From: Gemmatimonadota bacterium
GTDB taxonomy: Bacteria > Latescibacterota > UBA2968 > UBA8231
DNA length: 64,000 nucleotides
Direction: 5' to 3'
Assembly: GCA_018660835.1 (NCBI GenBank)
Contig: JABJJN010000059.1
Location: 1 to 64,000, forward strand
In this document: in pieces, positions 24,237 through 44,476 of the stretch
How positions within the stretch are numbered: position 1 is the first letter of the stretch
How the letters are laid out: the number at the start of each line of letters is the position of its first letter
Translations under genes and position numbers: made by a program
The notes under the pieces: generated by a model
The model's database searches: none
What the model was told of the DNA's origin: nothing
What the model saw: the letters and a program-made list of their open reading frames with translations, nothing else

Positions 24237-25057
24237 GGCACCCCCTCGATTCCATATTGCACAGCCACTGCTCTGGAAAACAGACCGATCAGTCCGCCGA
24301 AGACATTCCCCCAGACGATGAGCCAACCCAGATGTTTACGCATAACCTGTTCCATCATGCGTTTGACGATCTCCGGCGTGAGTTCCTCAAGCTTCGTCTC
24401 CAGCAACTTGTCGACCTGTCCACGCAGCTTCGCGACATCGAAGGCTTCCTCTCGCATCTTCGTCTCAGCAACCGGTCCCAGCCGCTGGATCAGCCCCCCC
24501 ATGAACTGCTGAATCAGGGGCTTGAGCATTTCCGTGCCCGCCATGCGCACCATCATACCCATCGGACCCTCTTTGAGTTTCTCGATCTCGAACTCAATAG
24601 CCCGACCCGCCTCGTCCGACTCGAGCACCTCCTGGAGCTTCCTCGTCAGCCCCCCACTGCCACCGGTCATACTCTGCCCATGCTCATCGAAGAAGCGCTG
24701 TAGATATTCCTCATCGAAGAAATGGGTCATGATCAGATCCTTGACCGTTGCGCGGATCTCCCGGAACCGCGCCGGAATCACACCGGATCCATAAAGGCCA
24801 GGCACCCGGTCGAAGAGCATCTTCACGGCGAGCCAGTTGGTGATGCCGCCGGCGAAACCAAAAACACCGACCGCCATGATCCAGGGACCCAGATCAACCA
24901 GCCAGGTTGCCATCCCGCCTCCCCCAGCACTCATGACCAGGGTCAGCCCCAGCAAGAGCGTCAGCAGCGACAGCAGATTGCTGACAGACCCCTTGTGCCA
25001 GAAAGGCATCGGCTCAAAGGTCTCTGCTACCTCAGTAGACCCCGCCTCACTCATCAC
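24233..25057 (-). CDS. DUF445 family membrane protein
   Basis: 274 residues. Two N-terminal hydrophobic helices (about 28-50 and 58-75) flank a glycine-rich turn, followed by the diagnostic GGITNWLAVKMLFDRVPGLYGSGVIPARFREIR motif region and a long amphipathic helical domain. A C-terminal helix (WLIVWGNVFGGLIGLFS) ends the protein. Function of the family is unknown; it is often linked with envelope genes, which fits the 4-nt overlap with ddl. Confidence 0.87.
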   Translation of the reverse strand: MMSEAGSTEVAETFEPMPFWHKGSVSNLLSLLTLLLGLTLVMSAGGGGMATWLVDLGPWIMAVGVFGFAGGITNWLAVKMLFDRVPGLYGSGVIPARFREIRATVKDLIMTHFFDEEYLQRFFDEHGQSMTGGSGGLTRKLQEVLESDEAGRAIEFEIEKLKEGPMGMMVRMAGTEMLKPLIQQFMGGLIQRLGPVAETKMREEAFDVAKLRGQVDKLLETKLEELTPEIVKRMMEQVMRKHLGWLIVWGNVFGGLIGLFSRAVAVQYGIEGVP

Positions 25058-26202
25058 TCACCCGCATCCAAGCCTCGATCTGTCGTCGTTTCCTGTGTGT
25101 CCTGGTGTCGCTCGATGGCCAGCTGAATCAAACGGTCAATGAGATCTCCATAGGAGACACCACTGGCATCCCACAACTTCGGATACATGCTGATCGGCGT
25201 GAACCCGGGCAGTGTGTTGATCTCGTTGATATAGATGACGGATTCGTCCTTCTCGCCCACGAAGAAATCGACCCGTGACAGACCGGCGCCATCGATGGCG
25301 ACAAAAGCATCCTTCGCCATCTGTTCGAGACGCGCTGTTGTTTCGGGACGCACACGTGCGGGGATCACGAGCTGCGAATTCTCATCGATATACTTCGATT
25401 CATAGTCATAAAACTCATTGCCCGGTACGATCTCACCGAGCATCGCCACCTCCGGGTCATCATTGCCGAGCACTGCCGCTTCGATCTCACGACAATCGAC
25501 GGCGAAGGCCTCAACGATCAGCTTGCGATCATAGCGCGCCGCCTCATCCATCCCCTGCTCTAGCTCGGCACGATCATGCGCCTTCGTGATCCCTACAGAG
25601 GAGCCGAGATTGGCAGGCTTAATGAAGACGGGATAATCAAAGGCCACCTCCAGATCGGCAACGATTTCGGCACGAACAGAACGCCAGCGATTGCGCAACA
25701 CACAGCGATAGTCGACCTGCGGCAAACCAGCATCGCGGAAGACGCGCTTCATCATGTCTTTGTCCATGCCCACTGCCGAGCCCAGCACACCGGAACCGAC
25801 ACAGGCAACACCGGCCAGGGCAAGCAGTCCCTGCACCGTGCCATCCTCGCCGAAGGGACCGTGCAGGATCGGCAGAATCACATCGAGACCGCCACCGATA
25901 TCATGGGCACCAATGTCACTGCCATCACCGAGTTCACCGCCGTCGCCAGCGACCAGTTCACCCGATCCAGCATAGTCGAGTCGCACTGGCGTCAGATCCC
26001 CGGCGACCACTTCGGGTGATTCCAGCAGCTTCTGCGCATCGGCCGCAGACAGCCAGCGGCCGTCACGATCGATGCCAATCATCGTCACATCGTATTTATC
26101 TCGATCAATTGCCGCCATCGCCGAGCGCGCCGACGTGACGGAGACCTCGTGTTCCGCCGAGCGTCCCCCAAAGAGGACACCGACGCGAATCTTGTTGGGC
26201 AT
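25054..26202 (-). CDS. ddl: D-alanine--D-alanine ligase
   Basis: 382 residues. ATP-grasp enzyme making D-Ala-D-Ala for peptidoglycan. N-terminal LFGGRSAEHEVSVTSA, the central VFIKPANLGSSVGITKA ATP-binding strand, and C-terminal RVDFFVGEKDESVIYINEINTLPGFTPISMYP are all canonical. The ligase length is at the long end, as in VanA/Ddl-type enzymes. First gene of the ddl-DUF445-SDR operon and divergent from the nuclease gene at 26343. Confidence 0.95.
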   Translation of the reverse strand: MPNKIRVGVLFGGRSAEHEVSVTSARSAMAAIDRDKYDVTMIGIDRDGRWLSAADAQKLLESPEVVAGDLTPVRLDYAGSGELVAGDGGELGDGSDIGAHDIGGGLDVILPILHGPFGEDGTVQGLLALAGVACVGSGVLGSAVGMDKDMMKRVFRDAGLPQVDYRCVLRNRWRSVRAEIVADLEVAFDYPVFIKPANLGSSVGITKAHDRAELEQGMDEAARYDRKLIVEAFAVDCREIEAAVLGNDDPEVAMLGEIVPGNEFYDYESKYIDENSQLVIPARVRPETTARLEQMAKDAFVAIDGAGLSRVDFFVGEKDESVIYINEINTLPGFTPISMYPKLWDASGVSYGDLIDRLIQLAIERHQDTQETTTDRGLDAGE

Positions 26203-26235: not shown

Positions 26236-26255
26236 CGCTGTCCATCAGGACAGCG
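26236..26255. promoter_or_regulatory. Inverted repeat in the ddl/nuclease divergent promoter region
   Basis: CGCTGTCC-ATCA-GGACAGCG is a perfect 8-bp dyad with a 4-nt centre, 34 bp upstream of the ddl start and 88 bp before the nuclease gene. A TAATAT hexamer follows at 26259. It could be an operator or an mRNA hairpin; no regulator is known. Confidence 0.4.
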
Positions 26256-26342: not shown

Positions 26343-27347
26343 ATGACCGAGAATGCCGGCTACCCAGGCCTGCGTCAGCAGATCGAAAGCCTGCTCACCG
26401 ATGGACGACAGTTCAGTCGACAGGCCGCCGAGTGGGAGAAAATCGAGACCTACTGGTTTATCGGCGATGCAATTCAACAGCATTTACAGAGCCTCGGTGG
26501 CCCCGAACGCGGCGACGAAACCGTCCGTAACCTCAGTAAAGACCTGCACTTGGGCCTGACCACGCTATATGAGATCCTGCGCTTTCGCCGCTGTATTTCC
26601 TCATTTCACGCGCGTGAAAACATCGGCTGGTCTCACTACAAGGCCCTCATCCACCTGCCCCCTGAGCGTATGCGTCACTACGAGCAACTCGCCGATGACA
26701 ATGCCTGGACGACACGTCAACTGAAACGCGCCATCGACGCCGACTCCGATACGGTTCCCGTGGATGACGGACTGCCAGCTGTATCACCCCTACGAGCCTA
26801 CTTCGGCGAACCGTACACGTATCGTGTCGTCGAGGACGCCGTGCCGCCGGCCCATGCTCCCGCCATCGATTTCGGCTTTCATCAGGTCGTGGTGCCGGAC
26901 GCACGCTTGCAGGGCTTTGAGACGACGTGTGTCGGCGACGTCGTCACTGTCGATCCCGTATCAGGCAAGGCCACTGTTCGTGCGGGGCGACCTCAGTTGT
27001 GGACCTACGTTGCTTATGTGCGGCGTGTCATTGATGGTGACACCCTTGATGTCGTCATCGATCTGGGTCTGGGTCAACGCGCTTTCCCGCGGATTCGTCT
27101 GCGGGGGATCGACACGCCCGAACTCTACACCGACGCGGGTCGGCGGGCCCGTGAGTTTGTCGAGGCGAAGCTGGCCGTGGACGATATGATCGTCGTCGCC
27201 ACGCGGCGCACTGACACCTACGGTCGGTATCTGGGTGATGTGAAGTATCTGGATGGGAACAGTGATCCGGGGGAGGTACTTGGCAAGGGGATCTATCTCA
27301 ACCGGCAGTTGCTGGATGAGGGGTTGGCGCGGCGGTATCTGGGGTAG
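26343..27347 (+). CDS. YhcG_N (DUF1016)-like domain fused to a thermonuclease (SNase) domain
   Basis: 334 residues. The N-terminal part (about 1-140) resembles the YhcG/DUF1016 N-terminal helical domain (DGRQFSRQAAEWEKIETYWFIGDAIQQHL...GWSHYKALI). The C-terminal part (about 218-334) is a staphylococcal-nuclease fold with its catalytic set visible: DGDTLDV, the RLRGIDTPEL block (Arg, Asp, Thr, Glu) and the second arginine in DTYGRYLGD. No signal peptide, so an intracellular nuclease. YhcG proteins normally carry a PD-(D/E)XK nuclease; here an SNase domain takes its place. Followed by a diverged copy of the last 357 nt. Confidence 0.8.
   Translation: MTENAGYPGLRQQIESLLTDGRQFSRQAAEWEKIETYWFIGDAIQQHLQSLGGPERGDETVRNLSKDLHLGLTTLYEILRFRRCISSFHARENIGWSHYKALIHLPPERMRHYEQLADDNAWTTRQLKRAIDADSDTVPVDDGLPAVSPLRAYFGEPYTYRVVEDAVPPAHAPAIDFGFHQVVVPDARLQGFETTCVGDVVTVDPVSGKATVRAGRPQLWTYVAYVRRVIDGDTLDVVIDLGLGQRAFPRIRLRGIDTPELYTDAGRRAREFVEAKLAVDDMIVVATRRTDTYGRYLGDVKYLDGNSDPGEVLGKGIYLNRQLLDEGLARRYLG
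26991..27347 (+). repeat. SNase-domain duplication, copy 1
   Basis: The 357 bp from CCTCAGTTGTGGAC to the stop of the nuclease gene recur, with scattered substitutions, at 28001-28357. The left breakpoint is sharp. Confidence 0.9.
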
Positions 27348-27780: not shown

Positions 27781-28000
27781 TCCGCAGGATCTCCGGCCCC
27801 GGCTTGCCCTGACCGAGCCAAGATCGTGCCCGGTCCCAGTGCGCTGACCCAGACCGAAGGGTGCGAGCACGGCGCCCCAAATGGGCGGCGCGTTCATCGG
27901 GTTTCATGGGCCAAGCTGTTGGCGAGAGTGTTTCAGTATGATGTGAGGGTGTGTCCCCGCTGCTCGGGTCGCATGAAGGTGATTGCTGCTCTGACTGCGC
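27781..28000 (+). pseudogene. IS91-type transposase remnant (C-terminal fragment)
   Basis: An open stretch encodes NGRRVHRVSWAKLLARVFQYD followed by VRVCPRCSGRMKVIAALTAP, which closely resembles the C-terminal part of IS91-family (Y2) transposases (the RxPWAELLxRVFxxDxxxCPxCGGRM block). The N-terminal catalytic part is absent and the fragment stops exactly where the second SNase copy begins. Identified by motif recognition only. Confidence 0.65.
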
Positions 28001-28357
28001 CCTCAGCTGTGGACGTATGTCGCTTATGTGCGGCGTGTCATTGACGGTGACACCCTCGATGTCGTCATCGATCTGGGTCTGGGTCAACGCGCTTTCCCGC
28101 GGCTTCGTCTGCGGGGTGTCGATACACCCGAACTCTACACCGGTGCGGGTCGGCGCGCTCGTGAGTTCGTCGAGGCAAGGCTCGCCGTGGACGACATGAT
28201 CGTCGTTGCCACGCGGCGCACTGACACCTACGGCCGGTATCTGGGGGATGTGAGGTATCTGGGTGGGAGCAGTGATGCGGGACAGGTGGTTGCGAAGGGG
28301 GTGTATCTGAATCGGGAGCTGCTGGAGGAGGGGCTGGCACGGCGGTATCTGGGTTGA
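28001..28357 (+). pseudogene. Truncated second copy of the SNase domain
   Basis: Encodes QLWTYVAYVRRVIDGDTLDV through to a stop at 28357, closely matching residues 217-334 of the nuclease at 26343. Catalytic motifs (DGDTLDV, RLRGVDTPEL, DTYGRYLGD) are intact, but the helical N-terminal domain is missing and the frame opens only after a TGA at 27992. GTG 28028 is the first usable start. Either a decaying fragment or a stand-alone nuclease domain of 109 residues; no ribosome-binding site supports the latter. Confidence 0.75.
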
Positions 28358-29189: not shown

Positions 29190-29258
29190 AGGATAGACAG
29201 GCGAATCACCGTCAACTTGAAATCACCGATCATTCGTCGGCTGCAATGCATGTTATGC
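29190..29258 (-). repeat. Half attC site (right half only)
   Basis: The stretch GGCTGCAATGCATGTTATGC at its right end plus the internal AGGCGAATCACCGTCAACTT match the right half of the local attC family. No matching left arm (ATAACGCA...) is found upstream within 130 bp. The array appears cut here. Confidence 0.7.
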
Positions 29259-29379
29259 AGTTCGCCAATTGCTCCATGAGATCCACGGGTCGATGGTCTG
29301 CAACAGCCTCACCCAAACGAGTCATTAGGAGTTCCCACATTGTCAGGTGTTCGCGACCTTGGCCCGGTATGGTTGTCAT
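29230..29379 (-). CDS. Small cassette ORF, 49 residues
   Basis: Encodes MTTIPGQGREHLTMWELLMT then RLGEAVADHRPVDLMEQLAN and CITCIAADE. It fills most of the interval between the half attC and the next attC, and its last codons run into the attC end, as is usual for cassette ORFs. AGGAG lies 15 nt upstream of the ATG, rather far. No family recognised; the acidic amphipathic helical look and two cysteines (CITC) are all that can be said. Confidence 0.45.
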   Translation of the reverse strand: MTTIPGQGREHLTMWELLMTRLGEAVADHRPVDLMEQLANCITCIAADE

Positions 29380-29453
29380 CCCTGTTTCTTGAGTCTCCTC
29401 AGTATTTGATGCTCAGAAATGCTCGCACGGATTTCTCTCACATGACTCTATCA

Positions 29454-29509
29454 CGATAACACGGCGATCACCTGCGAGCGAAGCGAGTCTGGTGCATCGC
29501 TTGTTATCA
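29454..29509 (-). repeat. attC site, short type (56 bp)
   Basis: Begins CGATAAC and ends GTTATCA. Arms GCGATCACC and GGTGCATCGC pair except for one unpaired G, the extrahelical base of folded attC. Much shorter than, and unrelated in its interior to, the 120-bp family. Belongs to the HigBA cassette. Confidence 0.85.
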
Positions 29510-29520
29510 AGCCGAATATC

Positions 29521-29826
29521 TCAACTCGCTCGTTTCAGAACTTGCACCTCGGTTTCCAGGCGCTCGCCAAGGTGGTCTTTCTCCAACTCCAAGTCATAAC
29601 GCATCTGGAGATTGAGCCAGAACCGCTCTGTCGTGGCAAAGTAGCGTGCTAGACGAAGTGCCGTATCCGCGGTGATGGCGCGTTTGCCATGGACGATCTC
29701 GTTGATTCGACGTGGTGGGACAGAGATATCCTTGGAAAGCCGGTACTGGCTTAGGCCCAGGGGCTCTAGAAACTCTTCCATCAGGATCTCACCCGGATGG
29801 ATCGGCGGCATTGTAGCTGTTGGCAT
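29521..29826 (-). CDS. higA: HigA-type antitoxin
   Basis: 101 residues. The N-terminal HPGEILMEEFLEPLGLSQYRL stretch and helix-turn-helix (SKDISVPPRRINEIVHGKRAIT) are diagnostic of HigA antidote proteins, with the conserved TTERFWLNLQ block after it. Binds and neutralises the upstream HigB and represses its own promoter. Starts 9 nt after the higB stop, so the order is toxin first, as in other higBA systems. Integron-cassette gene. Confidence 0.94.
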   Translation of the reverse strand: MPTATMPPIHPGEILMEEFLEPLGLSQYRLSKDISVPPRRINEIVHGKRAITADTALRLARYFATTERFWLNLQMRYDLELEKDHLGERLETEVQVLKRAS

Positions 29827-29835
29827 GCTGACCTC

Positions 29836-30117
29836 CTAGTGGTAGTCCACGATCTCTACATCAGCGGCGTGTCCCGCCTTCCACCGAAAACACACGCGCC
29901 ACTGATCGCTTATCCGAATGCTGTGTTGACCGCTACGATCTCCTGTGAGCTTCTCTAGGCGATTGCCAGGTGGCGACCGCAGATCCTGGATCGAGTCAGC
30001 AGCATCCAAGAGAAGCAGCTTCCTGAGGGCGGAGCGGGCTAGCGAGCCGGAGAATTTCCGTGAGCGCTCACGGCGGAAGACCTTCGCCGTCTCTCTATCA
30101 CGGAAGGATTCTATCAT
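29836..30117 (-). CDS. higB: HigB-type toxin (RelE/ParE superfamily)
   Basis: 93 residues. Ribosome-dependent mRNA interferase family: MIESFRDRETAKVFRRERSRKF at the start and the C-terminal QHSIRISDQWRVCFRWKAG...VEIVDYH, with the basic and aromatic residues expected for HigB. No Shine-Dalgarno sequence; the predicted transcription start is only a few nt before the ATG, so the mRNA may be leaderless. Paired with HigA. Confidence 0.94.
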   Translation of the reverse strand: MIESFRDRETAKVFRRERSRKFSGSLARSALRKLLLLDAADSIQDLRSPPGNRLEKLTGDRSGQHSIRISDQWRVCFRWKAGHAADVEIVDYH

Positions 30118-30125
30118 TGTCGTCT

Positions 30126-30164
30126 ATAATAACGCGACGCAATATTAACGACAAGCGTTATTAT
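30126..30164 (-). promoter_or_regulatory. higBA promoter with flanking operator dyad
   Basis: On the minus strand, TTGTCG (30154-30149) and TATTAT (30131-30126) are spaced 17 bp. The promoter is bracketed by a perfect 10-bp inverted repeat, ATAATAACGC ... GCGTTATTAT (arms 30126-30135 and 30155-30164), which fits a HigA-HigB operator. The predicted +1 is about 7 nt past the -10 box, at or just before the higB ATG. Confidence 0.75.
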
Positions 30165-30276
30165 CTCTCTGACTGCCACTTCATGCGAGAATCCGTGAGT
30201 CAGGGAGACCGCGAGTCGATGATGCAGATGGGACATGATTCGTTACTGACTTCAATTTTTGCACGAATAGCGATCT

Positions 30277-30397
30277 TGATAACGCACGAATCAGCTGCGG
30301 ACGGATCACCGTCGAGTCGGAACAACCAAATGAGATAGGCGAAACATCGTCAACTAAAGAAGAACCGATGGCCCGTCAGCTGCATTCGATGTTATGC
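30277..30397 (-). repeat. attC site, 121 bp
   Basis: Starts TGATAACGCACGAATCAGCTG and ends GCTGCATTCGATGTTATGC. Arms CGAAT-CAGCTG and CAGCTGCATTCG pair with one extrahelical G. Same family as 35119-35240. Belongs to the TetR cassette. Confidence 0.93.
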
Positions 30398-30431
30398 GCT
30401 TTTCGATTCTTCTTCTCAGACGTGTAAACAA

Positions 30432-31043
30432 TCAACCCGGATAACTCGACCTCACCTTCAGTGACTCCAGATGTTGCATCGCAACACCGGAGGCGTTCTT
30501 GACCACCTTGGCTGGGGCGACGGCTCGGATCATGACGAACAGACCCAAGACAGCTGCTGTGAAGAAACTCGACTCCTTTGCCACATCGACGGAGCCCTTG
30601 AGGTCCCCTGTCTCCTTGGCGTTTCCGAGCGCCTGCGTGAAAGCACTCGAAATCCGGGCAAAGTAGCGCGCAACAAACTCGGAGCCGCTGGGATCGGTTG
30701 GCCCAAACTCGACGGCCGTATTGCACAGCAGACAGCCACGGCCCGCTGCGGGGCCCGTGCTGGCCTTCGCAAAGAACTCGAACAGGGCGACAATCTCAGC
30801 CGCACCGGCGTTGGGTGCTTGCAGAGGACCAAAGTTTCGCTCCACGACCTCATCGTCGTAGCGCCCCAAGGCAGCATCAAAGAGAGCCTGCTTGCTGCCG
30901 AACTCGGCGTACAGGCTGTATCGGTTGACCCCGAGTTCCTCCACAAGCATCTGGGTCGATGTGCCCGCGAACCCATAGTCGCGAAAGATCTCCATTGACT
31001 TCGAAATCAGAACGTCACGGTCGTAAGTCTTTCGGCGGCCCAT
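30432..31043 (-). CDS. TetR family transcriptional regulator
   Basis: 203 residues from the ATG at MGRRKTYDRDVL, with GAGGAG 3 nt upstream. N-terminal TetR helix-turn-helix (SMEIFRDYGFAGTSTQMLVEELGVNRYSLYAEFGSKQALFDAAL) and an all-helical ligand domain containing a Cys pair (GRGCLLCNTAVEF). Divergently transcribed from the DUF1330-like gene 93 bp away, so it probably controls that promoter. Carried in an unusually large cassette (about 2.1 kb to the next attC). Confidence 0.92.
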   Translation of the reverse strand: MGRRKTYDRDVLISKSMEIFRDYGFAGTSTQMLVEELGVNRYSLYAEFGSKQALFDAALGRYDDEVVERNFGPLQAPNAGAAEIVALFEFFAKASTGPAAGRGCLLCNTAVEFGPTDPSGSEFVARYFARISSAFTQALGNAKETGDLKGSVDVAKESSFFTAAVLGLFVMIRAVAPAKVVKNASGVAMQHLESLKVRSSYPG

Positions 31044-31135
31044 TAGCTCCTCATGGTTGACATTCAACTTGTGGCACTTTATATCTAACACATCAGTTAG
31101 TTATAAGTCCACCCATAACGACATGGAGATCAGCC

Positions 31136-31435
31136 ATGGCCGAGAAAACCACGCTCGTCGTCACCGCGCAACCGAACCCCCAGGAGATGGAATCGGTACA
31201 AGAGTATCTACACGGGGTGCTGCCGCTGCTAACCGGAGCCGGCGGCAAGGTGGTCAAGCGCCTAAGAACGGACAAGGTCATCCATGGGAATCCCAGTGGG
31301 ATGACACTGGTGATGGACTTCGACTCAGAGGACGCCATCACCGGGATGTTTGAGTCAGACGACTATGCTGCTCTGGTGCCGGTCCGCGATCGGGGCTTTT
31401 CAGAGATGAACATCTTGCTGACGCAGGAGATGTAG
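31136..31435 (+). CDS. Small ferredoxin-fold protein (DUF1330/antibiotic-biosynthesis-monooxygenase-like)
   Basis: 99 residues. The pattern of a dimeric alpha/beta barrel monomer is visible: TLVVTAQPNPQEMESVQEYLH, then MTLVMDFDSEDAITGMFESDDYAALVPVRDRGFSEM. GGAG at 7 nt precedes the ATG. The likely target of the adjacent TetR regulator, as many such pairs are. Specific substrate unknown. Confidence 0.75.
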   Translation: MAEKTTLVVTAQPNPQEMESVQEYLHGVLPLLTGAGGKVVKRLRTDKVIHGNPSGMTLVMDFDSEDAITGMFESDDYAALVPVRDRGFSEMNILLTQEM

Positions 31436-31628
31436 CAACTCAGTCTTCCCGAACCTGCTCACGGTTCGTTGAGCAACACCTCGGTCACAGAGGGCGCAGT
31501 GAGAGCTGTAATGATCATTGCCCAGCGCGTCTTGAGAGAGAAGCGTATTCACAATGTCTACGGATTAGGGCCTTGCAAGCGGCGCGACGTGAGTTAGCCA
31601 TTCTCAACCCATATAGGTCTTTCATATC

Positions 31629-32159
31629 ATGCAAAAAACCACCGATTCCGTGTTCGGATTTCTCGCTGGCAAACCGGTCATCTGGGTTGTTGCCGCGTTG
31701 TGGGCCGTCACCAATGCGCTGATGACCCCGTTGCTGTTCAAGCTGCGCGCTTTGTCGGGAACGATGATCCCTGACGTCACGCCGCTCCACGATGCAGCTT
31801 TCCTGACAACCGTGTTCGCGGCGTACGGGCCGGAAGGCATGGAAATGTATCGCCAGGTGGCCTTGCTCGACTGGTTCTATCCGGCCGGATATGCCCTTTT
31901 CTGGGGTGCCTTGATCTTCATTCTGTTCCGCTCCTCACGCATTCGCAATCTGGCCTGGCTACCGGTGCTGGCCGCAGCATGTGACTATGCCGAGAACCAC
32001 TATCTGGATCTCTCAGCGTCGAACATCACCAACATCGATCCGGCGGCGGCGTCCACGTCCGGCACCATCGTTCTTCTCAAGATGCTGTGCATCGCATCCA
32101 GTGTTGGCCTGATCATCTATGGCCTGATCCGCTGGAACGCCGCCAGAAAGGCTGGCTAG
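31629..32159 (+). CDS. Multi-pass membrane protein, unknown function
   Basis: 176 residues with four hydrophobic stretches (about 12-32, 78-97, 101-115 and 137-160). No family was recognised. It follows the DUF1330-like gene by 193 bp in the same direction and, unusually for the array, runs against the main cassette orientation. May be in the same cassette as the TetR pair since no attC lies between them. Confidence 0.75.
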   Translation: MQKTTDSVFGFLAGKPVIWVVAALWAVTNALMTPLLFKLRALSGTMIPDVTPLHDAAFLTTVFAAYGPEGMEMYRQVALLDWFYPAGYALFWGALIFILFRSSRIRNLAWLPVLAAACDYAENHYLDLSASNITNIDPAAASTSGTIVLLKMLCIASSVGLIIYGLIRWNAARKAG

Positions 32160-32412
32160 GGGTCACCAATGTCGCCGTCTGCGGGACGTAGAAGGTCCTC
32201 GCGGAGCAGATGCACGCCGGAAGATCCGCATCCCTTCACCCTTGGCGAACGAGCCGATCTCTACCATGCCCATCACTTCGGAGTCTCGAAGTATCTCCTG
32301 CAGCGCAGACACTGCCGCCTCGAGTTACGTGCCATCCTGCTGCAAGGCCGCTCCGGTCTGGACCGAACTCTATCACGGCTCTCCTAGGCAGCTTCCGCTC
32401 AATCCGGACTCA
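32160..32412. other. Spacer without recognisable gene
   Basis: The 253 bp between the membrane protein and the next attC carry no ORF with a ribosome-binding site or family motif. A 72-codon plus-strand frame exists but is Arg/Ser-rich and unsupported. Confidence 0.5.
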
Positions 32413-32507
32413 GCATAACGCAGTTTCAGCCGTGGACAGATTCACCGATTGCCCTTGATCAAGCGAACGAGAAAGACGAAACACCGTCAGCTCAACACAT
32501 GTTATAG
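32413..32507 (-). repeat. attC site, 95 bp
   Basis: Starts GCATAACGCAGTTTCAGC and ends GTCAGCTCAACACATGTTATAG. Interior shares the CACCGTCAGCTC and GAGAAAGACGAA elements of the longer family, but is about 26 bp shorter. Belongs to the dehydrogenase cassette. Confidence 0.88.
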
Positions 32508-32613
32508 CAACCCTGATCGCTTTCCATTCACCTCGTGCCCAGCGTATTACGGCTCTCGACACACTCGACCGTCGAGGCTTCGACTCTGCCCGTGTGCCTG
32601 GGATTGAGGGCGA

Positions 32614-33600
32614 TCAAGGTAGGACCACGAGCTTCCCTGACGCCTCGCCGCTCTCCATGTATGCGTGGGCCTCCTGGATCTCATCCATCCTGAACTGACG
32701 ATGAACAGGTACGGTGGCCTTCCCCGCAGCCACTGAATCCAGGAAAGCCTGAAGCGCCTCCTGCGGCAGGTCGCTAGCATCGCCGCCATAGGCTGTCAGC
32801 CGGACGCCGCTCGGGAGGTAGTCAATGGGGTAGAACTCCTTCACGATCCACTCGTTTGACAGCATTCCCGTGAAGCAGACGACACCGTGGACTCGAGTCG
32901 AGTGAAGCGTATCGGGAAGCGTGGGCGTCCCGATCAACTCCAGTGCACAATCCACACCCTCAGGCAGGATCGCTCTCACTTGTTCGCTCACCGTCCCCCG
33001 ATCGATCAACACGTGATCAACGCCGACCTCGTGGAGCGCCGCTTCCTTCGAGGAACTCCGTGTAGTGGCCAGGACCGTCATGTCTCTCTGCTTGGCCAGC
33101 ACGGCTGTGGCCATTCCGATCGACGAAGTACCGCCGCGAATAAGGAGCGACTGCCCCGGTTGACCATCGAGTCCTACCGTCAGTGATCCATAGGCCGTCT
33201 GAAGCATTTCCGGAACTGCGCCGACAGTACCCCAGTCCAACTCGCTCTCGAAGCGGATCACCTGAAGGACTGGGACACAGGTATACTCTGCATACCCACC
33301 ATCGAACGTGCGGCCCATACCGCCCATCATAGTGGCGACCTGCTGCCCTTCAGCAAATTCCCCACCGGGACACTGAGCCACAATACCTGCCGCCTCAATG
33401 CCAAGGACTCTTGGAAACACGACTCCATCGGCCAGGCCGAGACGTGTATGGAGCTCGGACCGATTCAACCCAAACGCCATCACCCTTATCAGAACCCAGC
33501 CTGGCTCTGGGACTGGCACAGCGATGTCTCGAAGCTCCAGTGACGACGGTGGTCCAGGCTCGTCCAGCACGACGGCCCGCATCATCTCAGCCAATTCCAC
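32614..33600 (-). CDS. Zinc-binding-type MDR dehydrogenase (quinone oxidoreductase-like)
   Basis: 328 residues. N-terminal GroES-like domain (MRAVVLDEPGPPSSLELRDI...GLNRSELHTRLG...PRVLGIEAAGIV) and a Rossmann domain with SLLIRGGTSSIGMATAVLAKQ. Lacks the Cys-rich structural zinc loop, so it fits the quinone oxidoreductase branch. The start may be GTG 33600 or one of two ATGs at 33585 and 33582. Carried on an integron cassette; suggests detoxification or redox adaptation. Confidence 0.88.
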   Translation of the reverse strand: MELAEMMRAVVLDEPGPPSSLELRDIAVPVPEPGWVLIRVMAFGLNRSELHTRLGLADGVVFPRVLGIEAAGIVAQCPGGEFAEGQQVATMMGGMGRTFDGGYAEYTCVPVLQVIRFESELDWGTVGAVPEMLQTAYGSLTVGLDGQPGQSLLIRGGTSSIGMATAVLAKQRDMTVLATTRSSSKEAALHEVGVDHVLIDRGTVSEQVRAILPEGVDCALELIGTPTLPDTLHSTRVHGVVCFTGMLSNEWIVKEFYPIDYLPSGVRLTAYGGDASDLPQEALQAFLDSVAAGKATVPVHRQFRMDEIQEAHAYMESGEASGKLVVLP

Positions 33601-33624
33601 ACCTCAGGTCTTGGGGTCATAGGG

Positions 33625-33747
33625 CTATAACGCAGGGTTGAGCTGCGGCCAGACTCGCGTCTGCATTGGACAACCGGCCCAGACCAGCGAACCACTGACC
33701 CGACAAAGAATCACCAATAGAGCCATCTGCTACAACCCATGTTATGA
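33625..33747 (-). repeat. attC site, 123 bp
   Basis: Starts CTATAACGCAGGGTTGAGCTG and ends CTGCTACAACCCATGTTATGA. GGGTTG-AGC pairs with GCTACAACCC leaving one extrahelical T. Belongs to the serine-hydrolase cassette. Confidence 0.92.
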
Positions 33748-33830
33748 CCAACTCGACTCCCATCCGGGTTTCAGGAACGCTTCCCTTGCCGGCTCACTGT
33801 TGAGTCTGTCGATTTGCCAGGCCCAGAGTG

Positions 33831-34979
33831 TCAGTCCAGGCATGCGGCGTGCGCCAGAGGCGGCATTCGCTTCATGAATTTCCAGGGATTCCTGGGTTCC
33901 AGTTGAGAAAAGAGCATGTATATCAGATCTGCTTTCCGATCAATCCAGAAGAACGTGGTATTCGCACCGGCCCAATTGGCTTCGCCAACGCTGCCCACCT
34001 GGCCCATCAACACCGGGTCGCGCACGACGCCGAATCCCAGTCCGTAGCCTTTCCCGGGATTGCCCGGATGTAACTCGGGCTTCAGATGATCCATGAGCAT
34101 GAGCCGAACGGTCGCGGGCATAAGGATCCTCTCGCCGTCCAGTTCTCCGCCATTCAGAATCATCTGGCAGAAACGCAGATAGTCGATGGCCGTCGACGTG
34201 GCTCCCTGCCATTCAGCAGGTTCGTCAGTGGCAACTGTGAGCCTCTGGTTCGTCGTCCAATCATAGAGTTTCGCGAAGCGATCCAGCTTCTCAGTTGGCA
34301 CACCACGGCGGGTGTCCATCATCCCAAGTGGAGAGAGGATCTTCTCGTGGATGAATTCGTCGAATGAGAGACCGGAGACGGTCTCTACCAAGTACGGTAA
34401 GAGACTATATGAGGGATGGTAGTTGTAGCCCTCGCCTGGTTGGTACTCCAGTGGTACAGTTGCCCACCTTGCCAACATCTCTTCGCGCGTGAGACCAGGC
34501 CGCGCTACTTCCGCTGCCTGATGCAGTGTCAGTCCGGCAGTGTGCCTGAGTAGATCTTGAATCGTCGGCCCACTGTTGGGCGGCTCGAGTTGTGGGTCAT
34601 CTGCAGTTCCAGCGACGTTCACCTGGACGTCCTTGAACTGTGGCAGATACTCGGACACCGGATCGGTCAGTAGGATCTTTCCCTCTTCGTAGAGCATCAT
34701 GGTCGCCACACTCGTGATCGGCTTGATCATCGAGGCAATCCGGCAGATCGTGTCCGGTCTCATCGGCAGGTTGTTCTCGAGATCCCGCCAGCCGACGCTT
34801 TCCAGATGGGCGACCTTCCCGTGTCGCATCACAGCAGTGGTTATGCCAGCCGCTTTTCCATCATCGACGTAGCCCTGCATGATCGGAGCGATGCGGTCGA
34901 GACGCTCTGATGACAGACCTACCGCCTCTGGAGATGCCGTCGGGAGAGCACCACGGGGACTGGCTGTTCGTGAGTCCAT
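33831..34979 (-). CDS. Serine hydrolase, class C beta-lactamase-related (esterase type)
   Basis: 382 residues from the ATG at MDSRTASPRG, preceded by AAGGA. The S-x-x-K nucleophile motif is RIASMIKPITS and the Tyr-x-Ser element YHPSYSLLPYLVE; the third motif region is WAGANTTFFWIDR. The YHP-S and W-x-G features are typical of EstB-like esterases rather than true beta-lactamases. No signal peptide is clear at this start; an alternative upstream start (35066) adds a Cys-containing leader. Not evidence for drug resistance by itself. Cassette gene. Confidence 0.88.
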   Translation of the reverse strand: MDSRTASPRGALPTASPEAVGLSSERLDRIAPIMQGYVDDGKAAGITTAVMRHGKVAHLESVGWRDLENNLPMRPDTICRIASMIKPITSVATMMLYEEGKILLTDPVSEYLPQFKDVQVNVAGTADDPQLEPPNSGPTIQDLLRHTAGLTLHQAAEVARPGLTREEMLARWATVPLEYQPGEGYNYHPSYSLLPYLVETVSGLSFDEFIHEKILSPLGMMDTRRGVPTEKLDRFAKLYDWTTNQRLTVATDEPAEWQGATSTAIDYLRFCQMILNGGELDGERILMPATVRLMLMDHLKPELHPGNPGKGYGLGFGVVRDPVLMGQVGSVGEANWAGANTTFFWIDRKADLIYMLFSQLEPRNPWKFMKRMPPLAHAACLD

Positions 34980-35118
34980 CCTCTTCCTTGCTCCGATGTG
35001 GGTTCCTGTGGCTGGGCGAGTGCCTGATGATGCGAAGCATACCCGGGAGGCACATGACAGCAACACTATTCCGACGGGCCTACCCCTTGTTCAACCCTCA
35101 GGCAGCAGCTGCCGCTTG

Positions 35119-35240
35119 TCATAACGCACGAATCAGCTGCGGACAGATTCACCGATTGCTTTGGACAACTGAAAGAGAAAGGCGAATCAGCGCCAAACTT
35201 AGGAAGGCTGATCATCCGTCTGCTGCATTCGATGTTATGT
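35119..35240 (-). repeat. attC site, 122 bp
   Basis: Starts TCATAACGCACGAATCAGCTG and ends CTGCTGCATTCGATGTTATGT. Very like the site at 30277. Belongs to the alpha/beta hydrolase cassette to its right. Confidence 0.93.
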
Positions 35241-35263
35241 GAACATCCACTCTTCATCGATAG

Positions 35264-36040
35264 TCACGTGGCGTTGACGATTTCGGCCAGGCATTCGTCA
35301 AGATGACGATTGAACGTCTCTGGATCATCAAGCATGACGAAGTGTCCAACGTCCTCGATCTCTCTGACGTCGAAAGTTGGTAAACGAGGAGCGAGCTGAT
35401 GAAGTTGACCAAGCCCATCGTCATCTCGCTTCTGCTGGATTGTTCGGACTGGCACTCGAAGGCGACGCACCGAATTCTCGAAACACGTTGAGCCCCACTC
35501 AGAGATGGCCAATCGAGCTCCCACGGCCACATCCATCGACTGGGCGGCCATCGCCTCTGCGAATACAGCTTGCTCGGGATGAGACTCGAGGTCAAACATG
35601 CCCTGCGAGATGTCCTTCATCCGGGCCTCGAAGTCGGAACGAAGCTCAGATGCATCGTAAGGGTCGCCATAGAAGTCGAAGAACGAATCTGCGCCCACAA
35701 CGCCTATGACTCTGTTGGGTCGCGATAGAGCCGCCTCGACGGCAACGGGTCCACCCATGGAATGGCCAACCAGGACGGCAGCCTTCACATCAAGTGCATC
35801 CAGGACACATGCAACGTCCTCGCCGAACGCCTCCATCGTCCAGGTGTCTCGATCACTGGCCGATTCTCCATGTCCCGCAAGGTCCAGCGCCACGGCAGTG
35901 TACGACGTGCCGAAGTGGAGCATCTGATGGCTCCAGTGTCGACGTTGACAACACCATCCGTGTATGAACACGATGCCGACGTCACCCGAACCACAGACTT
36001 CGAATGAGATACGAACACCGTCGCTTGAGGTCGTTTCCAT
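35264..36040 (-). CDS. Alpha/beta hydrolase
   Basis: 258 residues. Oxyanion/nucleophile elbow GHSMGGPVAVEAA and catalytic histidine in EDVGHFVMLDDPETF, with GWCCQRRHW after the first strand. AGGAG at 3 nt from the ATG (METTSSDG). General ester or haloalkane-type hydrolase; specificity not readable. Second alpha/beta hydrolase of the array, the other being at 37745. Confidence 0.9.
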   Translation of the reverse strand: METTSSDGVRISFEVCGSGDVGIVFIHGWCCQRRHWSHQMLHFGTSYTAVALDLAGHGESASDRDTWTMEAFGEDVACVLDALDVKAAVLVGHSMGGPVAVEAALSRPNRVIGVVGADSFFDFYGDPYDASELRSDFEARMKDISQGMFDLESHPEQAVFAEAMAAQSMDVAVGARLAISEWGSTCFENSVRRLRVPVRTIQQKRDDDGLGQLHQLAPRLPTFDVREIEDVGHFVMLDDPETFNRHLDECLAEIVNAT

Positions 36041-36052
36041 ACTCTCCTATTC

Positions 36053-36178
36053 ACATAGCGCGCGAATCACCTGTGGCCAGATTCTCCGATTGTCTTCTGA
36101 CGACCGATCCAACCAGTCGAATCGGCACTGAGACGGCGAACCACTGACAAAACCATCAGGTGCATTCGATGTTATGTG
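36053..36178 (-). repeat. attC site, 126 bp, left core degenerate
   Basis: Starts ACATAGCGCGCGAATCACCTG (AGC instead of AAC) and ends CAGGTGCATTCGATGTTATGT. CGAAT-CACCTG and CAGGTGCATTCG pair with one extrahelical G. The AGC change at the left core may weaken recombination of this cassette boundary. Confidence 0.9.
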
Positions 36179-36282
36179 CTTCTCAATTCTTCTCGGCTCG
36201 AGAAGTGTAAGAAATCGACCCGGTCGGACCTGTTATCAACCAGCCCGGTCGCTTCAGCAGCGGACGCGACCTGTTGTATGGC
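36179..36282. other. Conserved post-attC flank and hairpin
   Basis: The first ~45 bp after this attC resemble the ~45 bp after the attC at 30397 (both contain CTTTTC/CTTCTC, ATTCTTCT, GTGTAA, CGACCCGG/CAACCCGG). CTTCTCG-GCT-CGAGAAG (36189-36205) forms a 7-bp hairpin downstream of the hydrolase gene and could end its transcript. Confidence 0.5.
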
Positions 36283-37479
36283 TCATTGGCTCTCTGAAAG
36301 GGCGCTCAGAGACATGCGGTGAGCCCTGGCGATGAACTCTTGCAACGTTAGGTCGTGCTGAGATCGCAGGTATTCGTCCATGACAGCGCGATCCCCGCTC
36401 CCAGATACAAAGCCAACGAGGCTTGTCAGGAACCTTCCGATGATAGCACGGTTCACGTCCTCGGAAAGCGGCTCAAAGCCGTCAGAGATGTCTCCGGATC
36501 CGATGGCATCAATGTCGGCGACTGCCCGAACCGTGGTCCCCGCCGAGAAGTCGATGCTGCGCAAGTCCAGGGTCTTGATCTCTGGGCTCCTCGCTGTCCG
36601 GAAAGCCACCGCTCGGTCCGCAACATCGTAGACAATGCTCCACTGACGCGTCCTAGGAAACTGCATGTCAGCGAGAAGGTTGAACGCGTATTCTACCGAG
36701 TTCTGATGTGTGGTCGGATCGAAGTGGGCCAATCCATCTGCGCCGATCAGGAAGCGCTGATCGCTTCCGGAATCAAACCAGCGATACAGCGGACCGAGCA
36801 AACCCGCGGACGCAGCATATCTCTTCATCTCGACGGCATAGGGAATGTTGCACAGAACAGGCACGGGCAGAGATTGCTCGGAATGCACGACAACTCGACC
36901 GTCCAAGAATTCTATGGTGGCAGCTGCACCATTAGCGTCCGCCACGAAGAGATGATAGTTGGCCATCGACACCGGAGAGAACGTAGCCCTCGGATCGATA
37001 TTGATATCGTCTACGTGGCTGAGCACCTCGCTCACACTGGCGTAGCTATCGAGTTGATATTGGATCCACTGGTGGATGAACATGACGGGCTTGTTGGGAG
37101 ATCGTGGGAAGCGGCTCTCCCCAAGCGCCATCTCAGCGATGACCAGTCCTGCCTCATTGACACCACCGTCGGGAAACCCTTGCCCCAAGATGGTGAACGT
37201 TGCCGATCCGAAGCGTGACGTCCATGAGAGAGGCAAAGCCCTGGCGTTGGTCAGGCCCAAATCAGTTGCGCACCGACTGTGTCTCGTCTGGCCCCGCGGG
37301 TTAATCAGTAAGGAGCCTGGCGTATAGAAGTCTTGATCGAGGTTGTGTCCAACGATCACCGTCGGGCCGTCCTTTATCAGGAACGTGGAGCATGCGTTGG
37401 CTGAACGAGCAGCCAAGACACCAACCAGCAGCAGCACAATCCTGATACTATGCGACCTTGGCGCATGACCAATGACCGA
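36283..37479 (-). CDS. Exported linear-amide C-N hydrolase (choloylglycine hydrolase/penicillin V acylase family)
   Basis: 398 residues from the ATG at MSVIGHAPRS, with AAGGAGG 5 nt upstream. A signal peptide (RIVLLLVGVLAARSANA) ends just before Cys, giving the N-terminal nucleophile of the Ntn fold (CSTFLIKDGPTVIVGHNLDQDF). Later WTSRFGSATFTILGQGFPDGGVNEAGLV and the LIADMQFP-type segments fit the family. Cleaves amides such as bile-acid conjugates, penicillin V or N-acyl homoserine lactones; which is not known. Largest single-gene cassette in the array. Confidence 0.88.
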   Translation of the reverse strand, partial: SVIGHAPRSHSIRIVLLLVGVLAARSANACSTFLIKDGPTVIVGHNLDQDFYTPGSLLINPRGQTRHSRCATDLGLTNARALPLSWTSRFGSATFTILGQGFPDGGVNEAGLVIAEMALGESRFPRSPNKPVMFIHQWIQYQLDSYASVSEVLSHVDDINIDPRATFSPVSMANYHLFVADANGAAATIEFLDGRVVVHSEQSLPVPVLCNIPYAVEMKRYAASAGLLGPLYRWFDSGSDQRFLIGADGLAHFDPTTHQNSVEYAFNLLADMQFPRTRQWSIVYDVADRAVAFRTARSPEIKTLDLRSIDFSAGTTVRAVADIDAIGSGDISDGFEPLSEDVNRAIIGRFLTSLVGFVSGSGDRAVMDEYLRSQHDLTLQEFIARAHRMSLSALSESQ

Positions 37480-37609
37480 CATCGGAGCCTCCTTCCTGAC
37501 TCGAGGCAGTTGATGTAAGTCAGCATTGACGGAATGCATGGAGCATGTCAAGTCTGCGATCTCAGAAAGTCGCGCATGGACCGATTACGCAGAGGCGCTG
37601 ACTGCCCAC

Positions 37610-37729
37610 ACATAACGCAGGGATGACCTGCGATGAACCACCGTCAGCTACGGATCACTGACTGCAGCGTAGCGTCCCCGGTGAACCTGAGCAACACTGT
37701 TAACCGGTCTGGTCAATCCCATGTTATCA
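37610..37729 (-). repeat. attC site, 120 bp
   Basis: Starts ACATAACGCAGGGATGACCTG and ends GGTCAATCCCATGTTATCA. GGGAT-GACC against GGTCAATCCC with one extrahelical T. Belongs to the second alpha/beta hydrolase cassette. Confidence 0.92.
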
Positions 37730-37744
37730 ATGGGCTTCTCTCCT

Positions 37745-38542: not shown

Positions 38543-38636
38543 GGATGATCAGGTCCGGGCTCGGAGTCGCTAGGAATCGCCATAGCTGGTCTCGATGAAA
38601 AACGACCAAGGTTGAGGCTGGCACAGGCCTTGGTCT

Positions 38637-38759
38637 TGATAACACAGGGTTCAGCAGCGGACAGTGCCGCTGCCCGACACCTGGCACTGTAGCCGCGCAG
38701 GTGAGCCGCCGCCGGCTTCCACGCTACCGTCAGCCCGCCTGCTGCAACCCATGTTATCT
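38637..38759 (-). repeat. attC site, 123 bp
   Basis: Starts TGATAACACAGGGTTCAGCAG and ends CTGCTGCAACCCATGTTATCT. GGGTT-CAGCAG pairs with CTGCTGCAACCC leaving one G. Near-identical ends to the site at 40551. Belongs to the small membrane protein cassette. Confidence 0.92.
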
Positions 38760-39190
38760 CGAGTTCCAGACCACCTGCGGCGCAGATCCTCAGCTGCCCT
38801 ACCCGATGCAGTTGCAGTTTTGTCAGGCAGTTGGCTGTTGCTGTTCGCAGTTCATCAAGAGCTGTTCGTAGTTCATTAGTCATCGAGCGAGAATTCTACA
38901 CGGACTGATCGCAGTGACCCGTGTATGCGCCATTGGAATAGGACTGAAAGAGCGCGCGACCATCATAGTCCATCATCTGCTGACACCTGCTGTAGAGTGG
39001 TGTTCGATCATCCGGGAGGCTTCAGATGTTGATACCCAATCAGCGTCAATGGTCTGACTCCCCGCTTTCTAGTCGGATGGTGTTCATGACGGATACCGTG
39101 GATCCGATGGAGCAAGTGGGCAACGTTGATGGTGGGATCCGAGGAGAGTATGTCTCGTGCGAGTACGGCAGTCCTCTGCTTGCGACGGGG
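38760..39190. other. Cassette interior without confirmed gene
   Basis: About 430 bp between the attC and the small membrane gene. A minus-strand frame starting at 38883 (MTNELRTALDELRTATANCL, with an ELRTA-x-DELRTAT repeat) runs through the attC to 38539 and is discussed as a finding. A plus-strand frame at 39026 with GGGAGG before its ATG overlaps the membrane gene and is left uncalled. Confidence 0.4.
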
Positions 39191-39442: not shown

Positions 39443-39526
39443 ATCCCTTACTCCTCCTACTACAACATCGCGATGCAATCGGCCAAGGGGCCCGCACTCT
39501 GTCGGATCAACGCTCGCAGCCAGTCA

Positions 39527-43201: not shown

Positions 43202-44458
43202 TTGGCGATGGCAGACAGAGACCTGGACCATTTTCACAGCTGGCTCCTGCAGTATCGGCCGATTGCCGGCGAAAAGGCGCCGCACATGGTTCGTTGGGTC
43301 GAGCGTTTCCTTCGCTCTCAACGTGGCCAGCATTTCGCCGACTGGCGAGATGCGCAGCGATCGTTCCTCACTGATCTTGGCGAGTCCGAACTGCAGGCAT
43401 GGCAGATCCGTCAGGCAGGTGACGCCATCACTCTTTATTGCGGCCAGTACTGTGTTAGAAATGAAACGGCATCGTTACCCTCGCCTAACAGCACGCCACC
43501 TGCGGCACCGTCTGAACTATTGAAGGAAATGGCGCGCTTGCTGCGCCTGCGCCACTATGCCCCGCGCACTGAACGGACCTACCTGGGTTGGGCACGGCGA
43601 TTCTTCCAGCATCGAGCCCCCTCGCCACAAACCCCGACGCCGGAGGAGTTGAAGGCCTATCTGAGTTACCTGGCCACCGACCGACGCGTGGCTTCAGCCA
43701 CGCAGAATCAGGCCTTCAACGCGCTGCTATTCCTTTTTCGACACGTCATCGGCACCGATGTGGGCGATATGGGTTCATCTATCCGAGCTCGGCGAGGACC
43801 GAAGTTGCCCGTCGTACTGACCCTTGACGAGACGCGGGCAATCCTTGGCCAACTTCAGGGGACAATGCGGCTCATGTTGGAGACGCTGTACGGCGGCGGC
43901 TTGCGTGTGTCCGAGTTGGTCGAGCTCCGTGTGAAGGACATCGATCTGGAGCCGCCTGCTCTCACCGTCAGAGGTGGCAAGGGGGATGCGGATCGAATCA
44001 CGTTGCTTCCGGATCGTGTCGTGACAGACCTTCGGCGTCATCTTCAGAAGGTGGGGCGCCTGCACCAACGCGACCTGCACGCGGGCCTCGGCCGGGCGCC
44101 GCTGCCCGGTGCCCTGAGTCGCAAGTATCCTGGTGCCGCAACAGAATTGGGCTGGCAGTTTGTCTTTCCATCCTCGCGGCTGGCGATGGATGAGGATCAC
44201 ATGGTGCGCCGCTGGCACGTGTCCGTAGCGAGCGTGCAGAAAGCGATGAAGAAGGCCGTTCGCGCCGCCGGCGTGAGCAAGTCCGCCTCGGTACACACAT
44301 TGCGCCACTCCTTTGCGACGCATCTACTGATTCAGGGCGTCGACATACGGCGGATTCAGGACCTGCTGGGGCATCGCAATCTGGAAACCACCATGATCTA
44401 CACGCACGTGCGCTTGTCTATGACGCCAGGGGTTCGCAGCCCGCTGGATGACTTGTAG
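43202..44458 (+). CDS. intI: Integron integrase
   Basis: 418-residue tyrosine recombinase. It has an N-terminal SAM-like core-binding domain (about 105-195, MARLLRLRHYAPRTERTYLG), and a catalytic domain with R in GLRVSELVELRV, HTLRHSFATHLL, GHRNLETTMIYTHV (active-site Arg, His, Arg, His, Tyr). The IntI-specific patch is present around residue 285-315 (HQRDLHAGLGRAPLPGALSRKYPGA), which separates IntI from XerC/D. The extra N-terminal 100 residues also occur in several environmental IntI. Transcribed away from the cassettes, as expected. Confidence 0.95.
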   Translation: MAMADRDLDHFHSWLLQYRPIAGEKAPHMVRWVERFLRSQRGQHFADWRDAQRSFLTDLGESELQAWQIRQAGDAITLYCGQYCVRNETASLPSPNSTPPAAPSELLKEMARLLRLRHYAPRTERTYLGWARRFFQHRAPSPQTPTPEELKAYLSYLATDRRVASATQNQAFNALLFLFRHVIGTDVGDMGSSIRARRGPKLPVVLTLDETRAILGQLQGTMRLMLETLYGGGLRVSELVELRVKDIDLEPPALTVRGGKGDADRITLLPDRVVTDLRRHLQKVGRLHQRDLHAGLGRAPLPGALSRKYPGAATELGWQFVFPSSRLAMDEDHMVRRWHVSVASVQKAMKKAVRAAGVSKSASVHTLRHSFATHLLIQGVDIRRIQDLLGHRNLETTMIYTHVRLSMTPGVRSPLDDL

Positions 44459-44476
44459 CTTGCCCTGTGCAGTTCT

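Follow-up and report, generated by a model that had tools for sequence, protein, structure and literature searches.

A predicted ParB/Noc-type DNA-binding domain and a palindrome within its own gene point to a probable self-binding DUF1016_N-SNase nuclease

The nuclease gene and its surroundings

The window analyzed here, a stretch of 64,000 nucleotides, carries on its plus strand an open reading frame at 26343-27347 that starts with ATG, contains no internal stop codon, and encodes a protein of 334 amino acids. The following features are used throughout.

26343..27347, plus strand: DUF1016_N-SNase nuclease gene (open reading frame of 334 amino acids, Pfam, AF2 model)
26382..26741, plus strand: DUF1016_N domain, residues 14 to 133 (Pfam; ParB/Noc-type helix-turn-helix [HTH] by profile and fold)
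26556..26594, plus strand: codons of helix 72-84, interpreted as the recognition helix of the HTH (model helix, covariation)
26568-26573, plus strand: codons of residues 76 and 77, which covary with the palindrome (association tests)
26604..26619, no strand: perfect 16-bp palindrome TTTCACGCGCGTGAAA in the coding sequence, centered 10.5 nt before the I94 codon in IGWSH
26997..27344, plus strand: SNase domain, with strands from residue 221 (Pfam, AF2 model, Foldseek, alignment)
27795..28007, plus strand: repeat shared at 94% with contig C4, where it lies about 0.7 kb from the C4 paralogue
27997..28357, plus strand: debris, a partial second SNase copy that runs from around residue 215 through the stop codon and lacks both the DUF1016_N part and the palindrome
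43202..44458, plus strand: integron integrase (sequence matches), given as context and outside the system

Both domains of the protein were matched in Pfam above the cut-off: DUF1016_N at residues 14 to 133 (4e-11; 43.6 bits, cut-off 32.8) and SNase at residues 250 to 332 (4.4e-8; 34 bits, cut-off 21). This agrees with the initial annotation, made from the sequence alone, which had described a DUF1016_N-like N-terminal part followed by a staphylococcal nuclease fold, all catalytic residues, no secretion signal, and duplication debris beside the gene. YhcG_C (PF06250) was not found in the window protein by Pfam; SNase stands in its place, and the protein is thus a DUF1016_N protein and not YhcG proper. 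The AF2 model (pLDDT 91.4) has an N-terminal domain made up entirely of helices, joined with low confidence at residues 137 to 145 to a small beta region and the SNase fold; it matched staphylococcal nuclease in Foldseek (E 1.3e-6; TMt 0.67). The catalytic residues D233, R252, D257, T258, E260, and R295, the equivalents of D21, R35, D40, T41, E43, and R87 of staphylococcal nuclease, are all present. Across 49 aligned homologues, D21 and R35 were each kept in 49 and D40, E43, and R87 each in 48, and the T41 position varied (mostly Cys or Ala, also Thr or Ser). With an OB fold and the equivalents of D21, R35, D40, E43, and R87, the domain belongs to the SNase nucleases. No signal sequence was visible in the protein on inspection by eye, and the domain is apparently an active intracellular nuclease. 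Among the PADLOC models, those of the candidate defense proteins PDC-S02 matched the N-terminal part (24 of the 25 matches listed; best, 3.7e-14), so that the likeness to them is limited to DUF1016_N; the SNase part gave a weak match to C3a212 (1.7e-4).

The debris downstream of the gene could be traced at the DNA level, with 88% identity between 27997-28353 and 26987-27343. The frame of the repeat at 27795-28007 resembles the end of a transposase by eye, and it had no Pfam match. A repeat of about 47 bp is found in the window at 44474-44520, beside the integrase, and at 48249-48295, and again at L004:148-199 on contig C36, immediately ahead of the SNase-only copy there. Another stretch, 3710-3942, recurs at 79% DNA identity at L007:1984-2220, within the contig C70 locus that carries a DUF1016_N-like fragment.

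Repeats at 29234-40595 were read as attC-like, and attC is our presumed name for them. Together they make up an integron-like array on the minus strand, with members at 29234, 30373, 33723, 35216, 36153, 37696, and 38726, among others. Its genes include a TetR-like gene (30432-31091) and a HigBA-resembling pair (29521-30117), both named by eye, as well as hydrolases, a sulfotransferase, and a gene for a beta-lactamase-fold protein (33831-35066). The integron mentioned in the initial annotation is real, but it is not supported as an explanation of the nuclease gene. The last array repeat found is about 1.9 kb away from that gene, which is on the opposite strand, and no array repeat occurs between 26.0 and 29.2 kb. 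The genome has one integrase of this type (a second match is 29% identical), the two full-length paralogues of the nuclease lie away from the integron, and no integrase similar to that of the window was detected in 80 homologue loci, many with short flanks, at E 1e-4. A reading of the gene as an integron cassette was rejected on the absence of an attC-like repeat at the gene, its strand, the single integrase, and these 80 loci; the proximity of the integron is incidental. A literature search for links of the SNase domain with integrons or with anti-phage activity found nothing relevant.

Homologues and their neighborhoods

A search for the same fusion returned full-length proteins at 36 to 41% identity in six places in five other genomes, together with two full-length paralogues (60 and 61% identity) on other contigs of the source genome and the SNase-only copy on C36 (90% at the amino acid level). 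Full-length relatives are present in the same class as the source genome. One scan, which gave at least 80 loci, placed relatives by their record labels in Latescibacterota, Omnitrophota, Verrucomicrobia/Opitutaceae, Deltaproteobacteria/Myxococcales, Marinamargulisbacteria, Gemmatimonadetes, and Spirochaetes. A distant form occurs on Leptospira plasmids, for which 34 records gave any match and 17 of them had at least 80% query coverage, at 23 to 26% identity. Twenty genomes picked from the homologue loci held 3 to 18 matches each, partial and split matches included. In alignment A2, which took 48 of the 80 homologue loci and excluded truncated, interrupted, SNase-only, and some further loci, DUF1016_N was matched in 49 of 49 rows and SNase in 48. 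A tree of 75 rows grouped the sequences by phylum, with repeated expansions within genomes, and the three copies of the source genome formed one clade (support, 100). Viral contigs (49 loci) gave matches only from residue 195 on, which is the SNase half; none of 454 phage records covered 80% of the query, and phages carried the SNase half only. As judged from these alignments, the fusion is an old, multiphylum, multicopy family and not a chance product, and its members are not lone housekeeping nucleases, the alternative that the initial annotation had raised. In three groups of same-genome paralogues (L068/L088/L096, L081/L089, and L072/L084), DNA likeness begins and ends near the start and stop codons, with no transposase.

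YhcG_C was present in all 28 scanned members of the YhcG comparison set. YhcG genes were found on plasmids, and a 301-base piece of yhcG was present in 3,937 of 5,426 complete Escherichia coli genomes. The gene is thus widespread, with relatives in many phyla, and its function is poorly understood.

Clustering of simple ORF calls at the 80 loci gave no constant neighbor partner, the largest neighbor cluster occurring at 12 of them. Seventy proteins were scanned from each of two groups, 176 near neighbor ORFs and 147 far ones (at least 6.5 kb away); the near proteins matched 155 PADLOC families and the far proteins matched 2, counted as families and not as proteins. Among the matches listed (25 of the 155), AbiEi (twice), HamB, DRT-UG5, a type III methyltransferase, a type I specificity subunit, a type II REase, and SoFic were named. 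By these matches, the homologues lie among defense genes and their setting is defense-like. The defense or conflict effector suggested by the initial annotation is plausible in this setting, without the integron link. On the whole, its observation was confirmed and its interpretation was partly supported; it missed the ParB-type nature of the N-terminal domain as well as the real surprise of the locus, a palindrome within the gene.

The in-gene palindrome and the domain predicted to read it

The palindrome of the window gene, TTTCACGCGCGTGAAA, had no second occurrence in its own genome at up to 1 mismatch. With 9 of 13 complementary pairs, 8 of them in a row, it is among the shorter ones: comparison of paralogues revealed perfect palindromes of 22 to 34 bp within the genes, at one place and of differing sequence. 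Fifty-one SNase-type genes were aligned by protein, and 1000 synonymous-codon reshufflings served as the null. At least 9 of 13 pairs were complementary in 39 genes (null mean, 4.1; maximum, 11) and at least 11 in 34 (null mean, 0.24; maximum, 3). All 39 genes share one center, located exactly 10.5 nt upstream of the codon for L in the LxW motif, and in each of them it was also the best center in the range tried; at other centers, at least 11 pairs were reached at 3 of 72,015 (41-gene subset). The palindrome was absent from 12 of the 51 genes and from the Leptospira plasmid form. Given this strong pattern across the family, the window copy is regarded as a short member of it.

A similar result was obtained for YhcG-type genes, 24 of 38 of which had at least 9 of 12 pairs at one center, 12 nt before the LxW codon (null mean, 0.74; maximum, 5 in 300; L206 and L234 were dropped from the 40 sequences). 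The YhcG/DUF1016 family (PF17761 and PF06250; COG4804) thus shares with the window protein the N-terminal domain and the kind of internal palindrome, whereas it has a PD-(D/E)XK domain instead of SNase, and its palindrome has an odd center, the SNase-type center being even and 1.5 nt nearer the LxW codon. From these comparisons, a palindrome at a fixed in-gene position appears to be a property of the whole DUF1016/YhcG family. In E. coli K-12, yhcG contains three palindromes 39 bp apart, and other strains have two or one (comparison of L244, L246 to L249, L252, and L253, plus the shortened L250 and L251). The K-12 gene (L244, 7828-8955; nt 303-410) has palindrome cores of the AGACnnnGTCT type, strain L246 keeps two palindromes, and the O157:H7 strain L248 keeps one. 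The yhcG genes of L247 and L249 are annotated as frameshifted, near the deletion end, and those of L250 and L251 are cut short beside transposase genes.

In the SNase type, three or four of the Watson-Crick types were found at each of pairs 1 to 8, and all three codon positions are involved; at the outer pairs 9 to 13, conserved residues leave little freedom. Complementarity at the two innermost pairs of this even type was seen in 82% and 95% of genes (54% and 39% expected), and in YhcG-type sites the 3-nt center varies freely (pair 1, 48%; expected, 53%). The palindrome is gene specific, since paralogues within one genome differ. In the source genome, the three copies (TTTCACGC/GCGTGAAA, TTTACACGC/GCGTGTAAA, and TTTGTACGC/GCGTACAAA) differ by changes that match between the two arms and that in some cases alter the protein. 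Palindrome patterns in that genome were found only in the family copies and one decayed relic on C31, which reads LHARVKLGWYH; a regulon or genomic target elsewhere was rejected on this basis. In the L105 genome, the palindrome occurred at only one place at up to 3 mismatches. The L068 genome has three gene copies and one extra noncoding site, at L278:1727-1750 (G151:C2:230725-230752), where a perfect 24-bp palindrome with arms as in the gene copies lies in noncoding DNA with no family gene nearby.

When a profile of 47 N-domains was compared with PDB sequences at E up to 10, 8 chains were matched, of which 7 were Spo0J, Noc, or ParB (best, 6sdk; E 8e-4) and the eighth was a protein named Gogy; the alignment spans the LxWSHYRxL...GWTVRELE stretch. 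With E up to 1 as the threshold, Pfam HTH_ParB was detected in 31 of these 47 domains (best, 1.3e-8) and was not reported for the window sequence alone. A model of the N-domain alone (pLDDT 94) had Noc, Spo0J, or ParB DNA-binding domains as its top 12 matches in a DALI-like aligner (Z 8.5 to 10.1 over 94 to 122 residues), several of them bound to their sites, and the first 19 Foldseek matches were Noc, Spo0J, and ParB at weak E-values of 0.03 to 0.26. Because sequence and fold agree, DUF1016_N was treated as a ParB-type HTH; by profile and predicted fold, it is a ParB/Noc-type helix-turn-helix DNA-binding domain. Pfam gave no match to the ParB/Srx N-terminal CTP-binding domain in the window protein, which thus has a ParB-like DNA-binding domain but is not a ParB. 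In the accessible text of PMC1189080, the N-terminal domain of YhcG is described as helical and its kind is left unassigned. No mention of a ParB kinship of DUF1016 or of a palindrome in yhcG was found in the accessible parts of the literature on DUF1016, YhcG, PDC-S02, and coding palindromes (including PMC1189080, PMC4316617, PMC7967276, and PMC11148124).

Helix 72-84 is the second helix of the HTH in the model and holds residues 76 and 77. Protein columns that follow the palindrome sequence after removal of overall similarity were sought in 37 of the 49 A2 rows (those with at least 9 pairs). Outside the palindrome-encoded columns, only 77 and 76 passed a family-wise p < 0.05 (0.007 and 0.047; 105 columns). 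In the SNase type, half-site position 4 was G in all 11 sequences with Arg77 and in 2 of 26 with other residues (p 9e-8), and it was C in 15 of 17 with Glu77. The Arg77-G rule, fixed on the SNase type, was replicated in the YhcG type at the predicted position and strongly at no other (13 of 15 versus 4 of 36; p 4e-7; 5 of 56 sequences lacking a clear palindrome were dropped), with near-identical rows (L213/L216/L217 and two E. coli alleles) counted separately. Two rules found within the YhcG-type set itself paired Tyr77 with T (13/13) and Trp76 with AG (14/15). R76 accompanied G8 in 6 of 6 SNase-type sequences but mostly AC in the YhcG type; residue 76 therefore seems to follow no single code across the two sets. 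On the SNase-domain tree, the R77 and G traits both change 9 times; well-supported branches give 2 independent R77-G pairs and none against, which is below significance, and unsupported branches are needed to reach 9 pairs. As the palindrome differs from copy to copy, a reader of its sequence must travel with the copy, which points to the protein itself. The residue-77 rule is a concrete, falsifiable recognition code obtained from sequence alone.

In Bacillus subtilis, one parS site lies within spo0J. The likeness of the window protein to ParB, Noc, and KorB with parS or NBS consists in the HTH domain (sequence and fold) and the palindromic site, and the recognition helix of ParB enters the major groove of its palindrome, according to an excerpt of PMC7383237. 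In contrast to ParB, the window protein has no detectable ParB CTPase domain and has a nuclease domain attached. The DUF1016_N site also changes between genes, unlike chromosomal parS, which is highly conserved according to an excerpt of PMC7022226.

Proposed role and alternative explanations

Four results were computed directly: the domain assignments, the kinship with ParB, a palindrome at a fixed position far in excess of the synonymous null, and the helix-base link in two separate gene sets. On these grounds we propose, with a probability of about 0.6, that the protein is a nuclease whose ParB/Noc-type domain reads a palindrome in its own gene, most likely an operator. A ParB/Noc-type DNA-binding domain would be combined with a swappable nuclease, SNase here and PD-(D/E)XK in YhcG. 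A DUF1016_N dimer would read the palindrome within its own gene. The palindrome falls in the codons of the loop that links the recognition helix to the helix after it, a location where the protein appears to tolerate it; situated there in the reading frame, the site would travel with the gene. Bound at this operator, the protein would limit its own transcription, and autorepression would hold down the level of a dangerous nuclease until the cell requires it, probably to counter phages or other invading DNA. Binding to its own gene is highly probable, a part in defense is a reasonable expectation, and autoregulation has slightly better than even odds of being the main role. The full chain of binding, repression, release, and invader cutting is one that we infer.

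The operator reading draws on three observations: sites confined, in the source genome, to family copies and a relic, promoter palindromes in some genes of a type without an internal site, and inner pairs that favor a double-strand site. In a short, mostly Myxococcota type without the internal site, 5 of 9 genes had a palindrome 80 to 90 nt before the match start; such a promoter-region palindrome was present in 5 of 35 genes that have the internal site and in 26 of 439 windows taken as background. A position about 250 nt inside the gene is unusual for an operator and counts against the explanation, as do the genes without the palindrome, the shortness of the window copy, the small number of well-supported independent pairs, the inconsistent behavior of residue 76, and the extra noncoding site in the L068 genome; an in-frame operator would make sense if the gene moves with little else. 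A broader and quite tentative extension is that DUF1016_N nucleases may be self-addressed genes, spreading as units of near-ORF size, each with a private palindrome read by its own ParB-type domain, helix and site changing in step so that a private control or targeting channel is kept, and with an exchangeable nuclease domain.

Four other explanations were weighed against the operator. Self-targeting for mobility, in which the nuclease nicks or cuts at the internal site or pairs copies and so aids gene-sized self-copying, is unlikely, although several features of the family speak for it. The closest same-genome paralogues share DNA over little beyond the gene and have unrelated flanks: L068/L088/L096 are 87 to 94% identical over about 1.13 kb, with the likeness ending at the stop codon, and flanks are likewise unrelated for L081/L089 (85%), L072/L084 (84%), and L064/L183 (76%). 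Many genomes hold several intact copies, and neither a conserved neighbor nor a transposase was seen at the homologue loci. However, a cut within the gene would destroy the copy, and a homing gene sits in its target without an intact target aboard; neither terminal repeats nor duplicated target sites were observed; and uncopied flanks are clear only for the pairs at 88 to 94%, since flank similarity could have decayed at 76 to 85%. Self-recognition between elements, in which the nuclease attacks incoming DNA with the same palindrome and excludes rival copies, would fit the differing palindromes of same-genome paralogues, which resemble exclusion groups, and the presence of yhcG and SNase-type genes on plasmids, the latter in Leptospira. 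It is very improbable: the host copy bears the same intact site, no protecting partner was found at the homologue loci, and nearly identical copies coexist in one genome. Homing as the main reading was ruled out, the symmetric site being intact inside the gene; in the genome of the window, no site that would befit a homing endonuclease lay outside the family.

The palindrome might alternatively act as a hairpin or cruciform, an RNA or single-strand DNA structure serving as an antitoxin-like RNA, in mRNA control, or in structure-specific cleavage. The freely varying YhcG-type center (48% versus 53% expected) would suit a loop, and the E. coli yhcG palindromes, three at 39-bp spacing, vary in number among strains, as do the repeats of repeat-type RNA antitoxins. 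Yet the innermost SNase-type pairs are complementary (82% and 95%), which is useless to an RNA loop, G-T mismatches are not in excess in that type (4 of 29), and a structure reader leaves unexplained why the recognition helix tracks single bases. The RNA hairpin reading is weakened by these patterns, and we consider the structural explanation improbable. Least credible of all is an ordinary mosaic nuclease whose palindrome arose incidentally, through codon choice or through mutations that perfect near-palindromes. Conserved residues do largely set the outer pairs 9 to 13, but the null gave at most 3 genes with at least 11 pairs against 34 observed, other centers were rarely palindromic, and recognition-helix residues would not follow such a palindrome.

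Several known systems resemble the proposed self-binding nuclease in part. The recombination-promoting nucleases (Rpn) are likewise nucleases with within-gene control and repeats that vary among strains, and they act against phages, in the accessible part of PMC10327210. The window protein, in contrast, gave no Rpn-type match in Pfam, and the internal element of Rpn is described there as a small protein, whereas here it is a DNA site. Perfect inverted repeats are also kept in the coding sequences of Nematomorpha mitochondria, but these are much longer, lie in mitochondrial genes, and have no cognate nuclease described in the accessible text (PMC6649704). If the proposal holds, the same coding sequence would specify a protein loop and the binding site of that very protein, the two changing together across phyla, which would be a rare form of double coding. 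With a ParB-type reader and a likely site location at hand, the function of YhcG becomes directly testable in E. coli.

Additional inverted repeats were observed upstream of two genes. Upstream of L078, at about 7903-7944, 18-bp arms CAAGTAGAGTTGTGACAT and ATGTCACAACTCTACTTG flank AAACAA just before a TATAAT-like box. The half-site ATGTCACAA is common to L078 and the YhcG-type L016, and both have Tyr-Arg at residues 76-77 (read by eye in L078). In the window, CGCTGTCC and GGACAGCG flank ATCA at 26236-26255, about 90 bp before the nuclease start codon. This repeat could be an extra operator or the hairpin of the divergent gene at 25054-26202, which resembles a D-Ala-D-Ala ligase by eye.
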